Assembly (NCBI GenBank): GCA_013112585.1
Contig: JABFGH010000003.1
Location: 186,001 to 250,000, forward strand
Source: Ignavibacteriota bacterium
Lineage (GTDB): Bacteria; Bacteroidota; Ignavibacteria; Ignavibacteriales; Melioribacteraceae
Reading direction: 5' to 3'
DNA length: 64,000 nucleotides
The position numbers were made by a program, and so were the translations under genes. Each line of letters begins with the position of its first letter. Position 1 is the stretch's first letter. Positions 9,603 to 12,400 of this stretch are shown here, piece after piece. The notes below the pieces were generated by a model, which was not told where the DNA came from, made no database searches, and saw only the letters and a list, made by a program, of their open reading frames with translations.

Positions 9603-10025
9603 ATGGGTAAGCTTCAGAAAAAAATAACTGTGAAAAGCTCCACGGATAACCTTGCCAAGGTAAGGGAGTTCACAAGGAGCAATGCAGCCAAAAGCGGTTT
9701 TGACGATGATACTATCGGCAAAATTATTTTGGCGGTGGATGAAGCTTGCACTAACATTGTTAAACACGCTTATAAATACTACCCCAATGGTGAAATAACC
9801 ATTAATATTGATTCAGATAAATCTAAATTTAAAATTACAATAACCGATTCCGGTTCAAAATTTAATCCTAACGAAATTGAAGAACCAAACTTAAGTGAAT
9901 ACCACAGAAAAAGGAAAGTTGGCGGATTAGGTATGTTTCTTATGAAAAAACTTATGGATGAAGTAAAGTATCACACCCTTTCCAAAGATAGAAATCAAGT
10001 CGTTTTAGTTAAATATATTAAGTAG
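9603..10025 (+). CDS. RsbW-type serine-protein kinase / anti-sigma factor
   Basis: The protein has 140 residues and a GHKL ATPase fold. The N-box is DEACTNIVKHAY (Glu47, Asn51), followed by TDSGSKF as the G1 box and VGGLGMFLMKK as the G2 box. Family members phosphorylate the serine of a STAS protein and bind a sigma factor or other target when that protein is phosphorylated. The frame can be extended upstream to 9507 inside the STAS gene, but the ATG at 9603, four bases after the STAS stop and behind AATAGGAAT, gives the normal family length. No group 3/sigma-B-type sigma gene is present in the window. Confidence 0.93.
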   Translation: MGKLQKKITVKSSTDNLAKVREFTRSNAAKSGFDDDTIGKIILAVDEACTNIVKHAYKYYPNGEITINIDSDKSKFKITITDSGSKFNPNEIEEPNLSEYHRKRKVGGLGMFLMKKLMDEVKYHTLSKDRNQVVLVKYIK

Positions 10026-10150
10026 TTTTGTTTAAATAAAGCTAAGTAAAAGTTAAAAACTTATTAGCAGATCAAGACACTCGTTTTTCACTCGGTATTT
10101 TGAAATTATTAACTGCACCTTAACCACATCTGCAATTAGGAATAAACAAA

Positions 10151-10190
10151 TGATTTAAGAACAAGGATTAACGATTTTTGATTTGATAAG
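10151..10190 (+). repeat. Left inverted-repeat arm of the four-helix-bundle element
   Basis: This arm contains TGATTTAAGAACAAG followed by GGATTAACGA and TTTTTGATTTG, just before the four-helix-bundle gene. The reverse complement of the sequence after the gene (10571-10634) contains the same three blocks in the same order. The right arm differs by a 7-base insertion and by a GC-rich palindrome placed between the first two blocks. The arms would pair in a transcript and leave the gene in the loop. Confidence 0.8.
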
Positions 10191-10200
10191 TTGATTACAA

Positions 10201-10563
10201 ATGAATAAATATGAATTAGAAGAGCGATTGATTGAATTTTCAGTTTTGATAATTGAAATAGTAAATGAAATGCCAAATACAAAAGCTGGTAATCATTTAT
10301 CCGGTCAACTGGTTCGTTCAGGCACTTCATCTGCTTTAAATTATGGAGAGGCTCAAAGTGGCGAATCAAGGAAAGATTTTATTCACAAGATCAAAGTTAT
10401 GCTTAAAGAATTAAGAGAAACTTTCGTTTGTTTGAAGATTATTGACCGAACAAAACTATATAAAACGGTAGAGAAAATAAAATCAGCACTTAAAGAGAAT
10501 GATGAACTGATTTCTATATTTGTAAAAAGTGCTGAAACTGCACAAAAGAATTTGAGTAAGTGA
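10201..10563 (+). CDS. Four-helix-bundle protein (IVP / S23 family)
   Basis: The protein has 120 residues and the pattern of the family first found as proteins encoded within 23S rRNA intervening sequences: GNHLSGQLVRSGTS, NYGEAQSGESRKDF and MLKELRET. The Avd accessory proteins of diversity-generating retroelements share this fold. The function of the free-standing members is not established. It lies between the RsbW-type kinase and the next phosphatase gene, and is enclosed by a long interrupted inverted repeat (10151-10190 and 10571-10634). That arrangement suggests an inserted unit rather than a signalling gene. No reverse transcriptase or variable-repeat pair was seen nearby, so a diversity-generating retroelement is unlikely here. 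Confidence 0.9.
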   Translation: MNKYELEERLIEFSVLIIEIVNEMPNTKAGNHLSGQLVRSGTSSALNYGEAQSGESRKDFIHKIKVMLKELRETFVCLKIIDRTKLYKTVEKIKSALKENDELISIFVKSAETAQKNLSK

Positions 10564-10570
10564 AATAATA

Positions 10571-10634
10571 AATAAATCAAAAATCGCTAATCGTTAATCC
10601 CTGCCTACCGGCAGGCAGGCTTGTTCTGAGATCA
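10571..10634 (+). repeat. Right inverted-repeat arm with internal GC-rich palindrome
   Basis: Read as its reverse complement, this arm matches the left arm at 10151-10190. It includes AATCAAAAATCG and TCGTTAATCC, then the palindrome CCTGCC-TACC-GGCAGG at 10600-10615 with an extra CAGG, then CTTGTTCT at 10620-10627. The palindrome is absent from the left arm, so it would bulge out as its own hairpin on a long stem. Confidence 0.8.
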
Positions 10635-10717
10635 ATTGAATTCTATTTTGGTTATTACTTACAAAACTATTACTCATGTAATTAACTTATTAAATAATTA
10701 AACCAAGTATTTAATAA

Positions 10718-12400
10718 ATGCTTTTAACAGATCACAACTCGGTACAGCGCAATCTTTCAGCATTAGTAGATTTTAGTAATCTCATTAATTCCACTTTGGA
10801 TATTGAGTTTACGCTAAATAATTTACTGCTGACATGTTTTGGTAAGTTCCATACCACAAAGGGTTTGGTAGCACTTACCGATGGTAATAATGAATTGAAA
10901 GTTATCGCTTCAAAAGGATTTTCTGATAAAGTAAAAAACAGTTTCCCGAAAGTTAATGCTGCGGAAATTGAAAATTGCAAAGAACTGAAAAAATTTTTAG
11001 ATGAGTTTAATCTTCCAATCTGCCGTGAAATTAAGTCCTCGAACAAAACAATTGGGGTATTAATTTTAGGCGAGCGATTAGTAAACAGAAAATTTGATAA
11101 CGATGACAATGAATTTATAAACACCCTTTTAAGTATTGCCGCTACTGCAATTGATAATTCCATTGGAGTAAAAAAATTAAAAACTCTTAACCGTGAACTT
11201 GATTCAAAAGTAAATCAATTAAGCTCCTTATTTGATTTGAGCAAAGAATTTAGCGGTATTTTGGAAATTGAAATGGTGGGTAAACTTTTAGTTTATTCAA
11301 TCATTGGTCAAATGCTGGTTTCGAGGTATGCAGTGCTTACTTGTGATGAAAATAGCAATTGTACAATATTGGATTCAAAATTTGATTACAAACTTTTGGA
11401 TAAAGCACTTACGGAGTATTCGGCATCTCAATTAACAGAAGTAGTAAAAGGTAAAAAGCTGCAGGAGGATTTCCCATCATTTAGTAATTTAGGCGTAGAG
11501 TTATTAGTACCGATGATAATAAAGGGTAAATCTAAAGGGATTATCTTATTAGGTCCTCGTATCAGCCTTCAAACTTATTCCCGTTCCGATATAGAATTCG
11601 TTTCATCGGTTGGAAGTCTTGCAATAATTTCGATAGAAAATGCTAAATTATTTAAAGAAACTGTAGAAAAACAGCGGATGGAAAAAGACCTTGAACTTGC
11701 GAGAAACATTCAGCGGAACTTGCTGCCGAATAAAATACCAAAACTAAAATCATTTGAAATAGCCGCTTTCAATGAATCGGCAAGGCAGGTAGGCGGCGAT
11801 TATTATGATGTGATAAAATTAAATGATGGAAAAACTTTAGTAGCAATTGCTGATGTTTCCGGTAAAGGAGTTCAGGCAGCTTTAATGATGGCAAATTTAC
11901 AGGCTTTTTTAAAATCTATAAGTAAACAGAATATACCGCTGGATGAAGCCACCAATCTGATAAATGACCTTGTTTCTGAAAATACTGTGATGGGAAATTT
12001 TATTACCTTTTTTTGGGCAGTGCTTAATGAAAAAGAAAAAAAAGTCACTTTTGTTAATGCAGGTCACAATCCGCCGCTTTTAATAAGAAATGGTGAAATT
12101 AAAAAAATGAAAAAAGGGGGAATGATTTTAGGTGTAATGGAAACAACTATACCCTATGAAGCGACTAATATAATAGTAGAATCGGATGATACAATTATTT
12201 TGTTTACTGATGGAGTGACCGAAGCAATGAATAAATTAAATCAAGAATATACAGATGAACGATTTGAAGAACTTCTAAAAAGAAACTATTCAAAAAGTGC
12301 TGATGAACTTTTAAAAACAATTAGGCATGATGTATTAGAGTTTACACAAAATGCGGAGCAATCCGATGATCTTACAGCATTAGTAATTAAGGTATTATAG
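10718..12400 (+). CDS. Soluble GAF-GAF-SpoIIE (RsbU-type) phosphatase
   Basis: The protein has 560 residues and no membrane segments. Two GAF-like sensor domains lie at about 10-150 and 170-310, then a coiled linker containing LARNIQRNLLPNKIPK and a PP2C/SpoIIE domain (345-560). The metal-binding motifs GGDYYD (359-364), ADVSGKG, TDGVTE and SDDLT are complete. It probably dephosphorylates one of the two STAS proteins in response to a cytoplasmic ligand. The next phosphatase gene starts two bases after its stop, so the two are co-transcribed. The four-helix-bundle element separates it from the kinase gene upstream. Confidence 0.93.
   Translation: MLLTDHNSVQRNLSALVDFSNLINSTLDIEFTLNNLLLTCFGKFHTTKGLVALTDGNNELKVIASKGFSDKVKNSFPKVNAAEIENCKELKKFLDEFNLPICREIKSSNKTIGVLILGERLVNRKFDNDDNEFINTLLSIAATAIDNSIGVKKLKTLNRELDSKVNQLSSLFDLSKEFSGILEIEMVGKLLVYSIIGQMLVSRYAVLTCDENSNCTILDSKFDYKLLDKALTEYSASQLTEVVKGKKLQEDFPSFSNLGVELLVPMIIKGKSKGIILLGPRISLQTYSRSDIEFVSSVGSLAIISIENAKLFKETVEKQRMEKDLELARNIQRNLLPNKIPKLKSFEIAAFNESARQVGGDYYDVIKLNDGKTLVAIADVSGKGVQAALMMANLQAFLKSISKQNIPLDEATNLINDLVSENTVMGNFITFFWAVLNEKEKKVTFVNAGHNPPLLIRNGEIKKMKKGGMILGVMETTIPYEATNIIVESDDTIILFTDGVTEAMNKLNQEYTDERFEELLKRNYSKSADELLKTIRHDVLEFTQNAEQSDDLTALVIKVL

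Follow-up and report, generated by a model that had tools for sequence, protein, structure and literature searches.

An IVP/S23 gene lies between inverted heptad arms

In the 64,000-nt window (the whole stretch of DNA that was analysed), a gene of the IVP/S23 family was located between an RsbW-like gene and a PP2C-like gene, with an arm of degenerate 7-nt words (heptads) on either side. The family was first known from proteins encoded within 23S rRNA intervening sequences, which are held by a stem formed from their two ends; 23S intervening sequences with an S23p/IVP gene occur in Leptospira, Coxiella, Salmonella and others. The features of the locus are listed below.

9603..10025, + strand: upstream host gene, RsbW-like kinase, with its TAG stop 125 nt from the left arm
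10026..10717, no strand: whole inserted stretch, 692 nt, from comparison with the junction in relatives
10151..10184, + strand: left (5') arm, degenerate heptads TGATTTA AGAACAA GGATTAA CGATTTT TGATTT, G>C, from the sequence and inverted repeats I2, I3 and I5
10201..10563, + strand: IVP/S23-family gene, 120 aa, four-helix bundle, from PF05635 and TIGR02436 profiles, AlphaFold and Foldseek
10574..10599, + strand: right (3') arm, inner part, heptads AAATCAA AAATCGC TAATCGT TAATC, from the sequence and inverted repeats
10600..10619, no strand: palindrome CCTGCCTACC/GGCAGGCAGG, a dispersed repeat of its own that interrupts the right arm, from its recurrence in the genome
10620..10634, + strand: right arm, outer part CTTGTTCTGAGATCA, partner of 10151-10165, from the inverted repeat and RNA fold
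10718..12400, + strand: downstream host gene, GAF/PP2C-like phosphatase, named by eye from the sequence

The assignment of the gene to IVP/S23 in the earlier note was borne out by profile matches to PF05635 (E 1.8e-11, 44.6 bits, cut-off 33.8) and TIGR02436 (E 4.9e-20, 71.8 bits, cut-off 24). AlphaFold modelled the product as a four-helix bundle with a pLDDT of 91, and the closest structures in Foldseek were those of the S23 family (2rld, TM 0.76-0.83; 2gsc, TM 0.76-0.81), followed by Avd (4dwl, TM 0.74) and the Avd chain of a DGR ribonucleoprotein (8ub7 chain E). The protein in 2gsc has been described as a homopentamer (PMC4990558). With a dN/dS of 0.095 between the window gene and paralog L008 and a median of 0.13 over 37 pairs, the IVP gene is under strong purifying selection.

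Gene, arms and palindrome were found where the earlier note had placed them, including three left blocks that return on the right in inverted order. Between the left arm (10151-10184) and the reverse complement of the right arm, TGATTTAAGAACAAG and TGATCTCAGAACAAG were identical at 13/15 positions, and the remaining blocks GGATTAACGA and TTTTTGATTT at 10/10 each. Each arm is a tandem array of degenerate 7-nt units, and the two arrays stand in inverted orientation on either side of the gene; the inner right arm was the sole period-7 array in the whole window at the strict threshold, and the left arm is short and degenerate. Against first-order Markov shuffles, the arm pair reached a p of ~0.09 in a local alignment without a long gap and of 2e-4 when the palindrome was allowed as a single long gap. 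By itself this pair is no more than suggestive and moderately unusual, and it is the family-wide pattern described below that sets the window arms above chance. RNA folding of 10145-10640 gave -117.3 kcal/mol (z -4.66), with the arms paired around the gene, as the note had supposed, and the palindrome as a side hairpin. No known RNA family was found in 9900-10900.

The palindrome itself, which the note had counted as part of the unit, had to be taken out of it. The CCTGCC..GGCAGG motif has ~35 sites in the genome (27 matches in each orientation, many of these being one site read on both strands), and in nearly all contexts inspected (L200-L227) CCTGCCTACCGGCAGG (window 10600-10619) stood inside heptad arrays of quite different words. 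It is a separate repeat and no part of the window unit. Its presence within many different-word arrays looks as if it targeted them or arose there.

The window arm word occurred 34 times in the organism's own genome, compared with three occurrences of the reversed control. Often it stood in gene-less hairpin units of ~120 bp, made of the window-arm heptads in tandem copies, as at C5:65743-66354 (L022), C7:169118-169535 (L015), C9:71918-72207 (L030) and C5:240480-240863 (L023), the last being flanked by two copies of a tRNA-like gene.

Heptad arrays accompany the gene family across phyla

Ten IVP genes are present in the organism's own genome, and the family was found in 36 of 38 relatives; the related-genome sample comprised 114 family genes from 38 related genomes. 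One relative (G014) carried 31 IVP genes in 4.1 Mb, several of them clustered (for example on contig C310), making it a candidate in which to catch recent copying. On inspection by eye, nearly every copy was bracketed by heptads with a word of its own. Plain Smith-Waterman comparison of the flanks with those of control ORFs gave a weak signal because the arms are degenerate, and period-7, own-versus-other and same-genome tests were used after it. At lags of 7, 14 and 21, the self-match of the flanks was 11.5, 10.4 and 6.8 for the 114 genes versus 3.6, 3.4 and 3.0 for control ORFs, and no other lag in the 4-24 range was comparably raised. When a period-7 array was defined by a score of at least 9, with control ORFs lying >2.5 kb from any IVP gene, 74/114 genes had an array in either flank and 39/114 in both, compared with 19/225 and 4/225 controls, though ~35-40% of the family genes had no strong array at this threshold. 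The enrichment was specific to period 7 and absent at 5, 9, 10 and 11.

In 454 kb of sequence, made up of stretches chosen around IVP genes, 31 of the 75 period-7 arrays fell within 250 nt of 26 IVP genes, a zone covering ~5% of the bases, and the other 44 lay away from any IVP gene. The tie between arms and gene family drawn in the earlier note was therefore upheld, since arms accompany the majority of the gene's relatives, and arrays, though also found without the gene, are strongly concentrated at it.

The tie also holds across phyla. Beyond the close relatives, 79 loci of named genomes (Bacteroidota, Desulfobacterota, Anaerolineae, SAR324, Lentisphaerota, Gracilibacteria, Atribacterota and others) were sampled with a consensus protein query, which biased the sample to one subfamily. 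Of these loci, 47 had a period-7 array on one side or more, 25 of them on both sides, and the own-arm score was 17.9 versus 10.0 with the right arms of other elements. An additional 45 loci gave an inverted score of 15 or more in 31 cases and a direct one in eight. S23 genes on cyanobacterial plasmids (Calothrix, Nostoc, Stanieria, Anabaena, Picosynechococcus, Geminocystis and Aulosira) mostly had matching inverted heptads, with words such as GGGAACA and GGGAGTA; one Calothrix copy (L402) had none of these, and several viral contigs carried the same gene-and-heptad pattern. As an exception, the AAAAGCT arrays that flank the gene on plasmid pPg_01 of Pseudanabaena (L399) are in direct orientation and differ slightly in their words. 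On cyanobacterial plasmids, IVP genes were also seen amid CRISPR genes (L397, L398 and L399), in the order cas6-IVP-cas4 in Anabaena sp. 90 and Pseudanabaena galeata and cas10-IVP-cmr3-like in Picosynechococcus. The window locus is one instance of an architecture that is general and, apparently, so far undescribed.

The two arms of a copy match each other in inverted orientation

The consensus heptads of the two arms agreed within one mismatch as reverse complements in 26/39 elements and in direct orientation in six. Local alignment of each left arm with its own right arm scored 18.1, compared with 10.8 for the right arms of other elements and a maximum of 12.1 over 2000 permutations; restricted to partners from the same genome, the values were 18.4 and 10.8 (p 1.5e-15). 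Arm complementarity is thus maintained within elements. The words themselves differed from copy to copy, being distinct in 58 of 61 left arms, and no convincing shared motif was found in the heptads of the left arrays. Arms of two elements were alike only when their proteins exceeded ~60% identity, indicating that the arms travel with the gene yet turn over fast.

These comparisons bear on the reading that heptad arrays arise at gene ends by ordinary slippage, that IVP genes accumulate nearby and that arm matching reflects composition. The 44 arrays away from IVP genes fit it, and among the long simple repeats of bacteria heptamers are the most common (PMC4692102, PMC4679880). It would not account for matching that is inverted and not direct, for own partners that surpass other right arms of the same genome, or for the empty sites described below, which have no array. 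Ordinary slippage is therefore already disfavoured, and we regard it as improbable.

If RNA pairing were selected, G-U use would predict a sense advantage in duplex energy. Sense pairing had no steady advantage over antisense: the difference had a p of 0.018 in one set, but in the second its sign was reversed and it did not reach significance. The test did not separate RNA from DNA pairing, so that the two arms may instead change in concert as DNA.

Empty, occupied and decayed sites show a discrete insertion

The spacing between the RsbW-like and PP2C-like genes was 0-9 nt in 28/29 relatives and 105 nt in one, as against 692 nt in the window, which confirmed the earlier claim that the unit interrupts a partner-switching operon. 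The inserted stretch extends beyond the arm-gene-arm unit, with ~125 nt before the arms and 83 nt after them. A weak 11-nt repeat was noticed in the window flanks, TTAGCAGATCA (10064-10074) resembling TTAACAGATCA (10724-10734, at the start of the downstream gene); it is possibly a worn insertion-site duplication, or else chance.

The junction of nuoC and nuoD provided a second site. In 48 parsed genomes it was empty in ~26 (0-27 nt), occupied by an element of 430-700 nt in 15 and held a decayed remnant in about six; the organism's own nuoC-nuoD site is empty, and within one genus two members were occupied and a third was empty without a spacer. Empty sites here and at the window junction agree with the discrete inserted unit that the note had proposed and show that gene and arms arrive together. 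The words of the 15 nuoC-nuoD elements differed, and their arms matched their own partners (18.2 versus 12.5). Their proteins form one subfamily, which is not strictly confined to this site and not strictly monophyletic with respect to Bacteroidota copies, so that one ancestral insertion followed by losses and repeated insertion are both possible. At empty nuoC-nuoD sites we found no match that would derive the heptad words from the target, and by eye no target-site duplication was evident at the 15 occupied junctions.

The elements also keep a register with the upstream stop codon. Across 131 elements, the 7-nt periodicity begins at the last two bases of that codon, and behind TAG stops the dinucleotide AG repeats in phase at 7-nt intervals (TAG NNNNNAG NNNNNAG), 110 times versus 11-29 in the other phases; the corresponding values in controls were 25 and 8-17. 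Upstream genes ended in TAG in 40% of cases, compared with 20% of controls. At nuoC the stop was TAG in 14/15 occupied and 4/26 empty alleles (p 1e-6, a contrast that shared ancestry among the occupied alleles may exaggerate). The window element is not a textbook member, because its left arm begins 125 nt after the stop codon.

The elements also have a polarity. The 5' arm had G>C in 82/85 elements and the reverse in three (56 versus three across phyla). In the same comparison, the 3' arm is C>G relative to the gene, opposite to the 5' arm. Both neighbours were codirectional with the IVP gene in 98/105 cases versus 210/298 for control ORFs; wherever the two neighbours shared a direction, the gene was sense (98/98) and never antisense.

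A DNA transposon, with IVP as the transposase, the arms as terminal inverted repeats and the gene-less hairpins as MITEs, would accommodate an inserted unit with inverted ends and the tandem same-word hairpin units of the own genome. We nevertheless consider it unlikely. Transposons and MITEs have a conserved terminal inverted repeat to which their own protein binds, while the terminal words here have no consensus (58/61 distinct); the protein is a four-helix bundle like the S23 and Avd structures, with no nuclease fold; orientation is strictly sense; and the nuoC-nuoD junctions bear no evident target-site duplication.

Sense-only insertion and the fold similarity to Avd (4dwl and the Avd chain of 8ub7) would instead suit a retro-mobile element, in which an Avd-like IVP protein works with a reverse transcriptase supplied in trans, whose slippage produces the heptads. 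Adenine-specific variation was absent from the left arrays, however (variant fractions A 0.15, C 0.24, G 0.17 and T 0.17), and no reverse transcriptase was recognised by eye among the neighbouring ORFs in 4-18 kb of the window, and we hold this reading to be improbable as well.

Strong purifying selection and long residence at nuoC-nuoD would be expected of a domesticated regulatory gene whose structured 5' and 3' UTRs tune the operon. Patchy presence, decayed remnants, empty alleles within a genus and unrelated host operons speak against such a role, which we think very improbable.

A probable intervening sequence in mRNA

A 5' heptad array, an IVP/S23 gene and an inverted 3' array have been added together into a tight operon gap; the arms are able to enclose the gene in a long paired stem, the gene is sense to its operon and this anatomy recurs across phyla. 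Gene, stem and heptads are of the kind found in the Coxiella intervening sequence, here placed in operon gaps and in sense, from which we infer an intervening sequence of mRNA. We therefore favour, as the probable though by no means certain reading, that the unit is an intervening-sequence (IVS) element in mRNA and not in rRNA, selfish and tolerated in operon gaps.

On this mRNA-intervening-sequence reading, the promoter of the host operon would transcribe the unit and the arms would form a duplex in the transcript. By analogy with rRNA intervening sequences, RNase III could cut this duplex, which would free the IVP message and split the operon mRNA, harmlessly because the cut would fall between two cistrons. 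The pentameric IVP protein would then bind through the shape, not the sequence, of the stem or of the freed RNA; recognition of a fixed arm sequence is unlikely because the words vary from copy to copy. Such binding may aid persistence or spread of the element, and the arms would change by heptad slippage with complementarity retained. The element is most likely selfish, and tolerated because it is placed exactly between a stop and a start codon.

The association joins two puzzles. Heptanucleotide repeats have been known since the early cyanobacterial genome studies and, to our knowledge, have no accepted source, and we know of no function assigned to the IVP/S23 protein, for which crystal structures have existed since 2006. 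The link between gene and heptads may help explain these puzzling 7-letter repeats of bacterial genomes. A bolder version is possible but doubtful, namely that the elements form a widespread and hitherto unrecognised class of mobile element, in which an Avd-like pentamer gene with copy-specific inverted heptad arrays inserts at operon stop codons, spreads via an RNA stage and has given rise to a large part of the heptanucleotide repeats in bacterial genomes, including the STRRs of cyanobacteria and GGGAATC of Xanthomonas. The element is testable, with clear ends and natural empty sites, and the arms that covary at orthologous sites offer a direct test of the proposed stem.

Comparison with known systems

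Like RAYT/REPIN and MITE systems, the family combines a gene bracketed by inverted repeats with gene-less hairpin units of the same repeat; unlike them, it has no transposase-like protein and its repeat sequence is not conserved between copies. It shares the four-helix bundle fold with Avd of diversity-generating retroelements, and differs in having no adjacent reverse transcriptase, template/variable repeat or adenine mutagenesis signature.

The STRR heptanucleotides of cyanobacteria and the GGGAATC repeats of Xanthomonas are likewise intergenic, degenerate 7-nt tandem arrays, in inverted pairs in Xanthomonas (PMC4692102). Xanthomonas has 70-75 such pairs, and heptameric repeats have also been described in Nostoc (PMC4692102) and Beggiatoaceae (PMC4679880). 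Here heptads flank S23 genes on plasmids of Nostoc, Calothrix and Anabaena, whereas many STRRs have no gene. S23/IVP genes are unmentioned in the reports of the Xanthomonas and Nostoc (PMC4692102) and Beggiatoaceae (PMC4679880) heptamers. For the Xanthomonas protein XCC0516, the best match in the class searched had 55% identity. In the open-access literature, to which our search was limited (subscription papers were outside its scope), heptads and the IVP/S23 family were joined nowhere except in the Coxiella observation.

A close counterpart is the 23S rRNA intervening sequence, with which the unit shares the protein family, a size of ~0.4-0.5 kb and terminal inverted repeats that form a stem around the gene. 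In Coxiella, RNase III cuts the stem of the terminal inverted repeats; the heptad GACAGAT stands two to three times in tandem ahead of the S23p gene, and the 5' cut is made at the first copy (PMC4990558). The window unit resembles the Coxiella element in its tandem heptads upstream of the gene. The 3' half of the organism's own 23S gene (the 5' half being masked) contained no insert. Because it is located between RsbW-like and PP2C-like genes, the window unit is not assigned to the rRNA intervening sequences but is regarded as working like one, with excision by RNase III proposed by analogy. The layout of gene and inverted arms that the earlier note had recognised outside rRNA is thus sustained; unlike the 23S elements, the unit lies between protein-coding genes and each copy has its own heptad word. 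The association of gene and heptads suggests that the elements in rRNA are just the visible part of a far larger population in mRNA.
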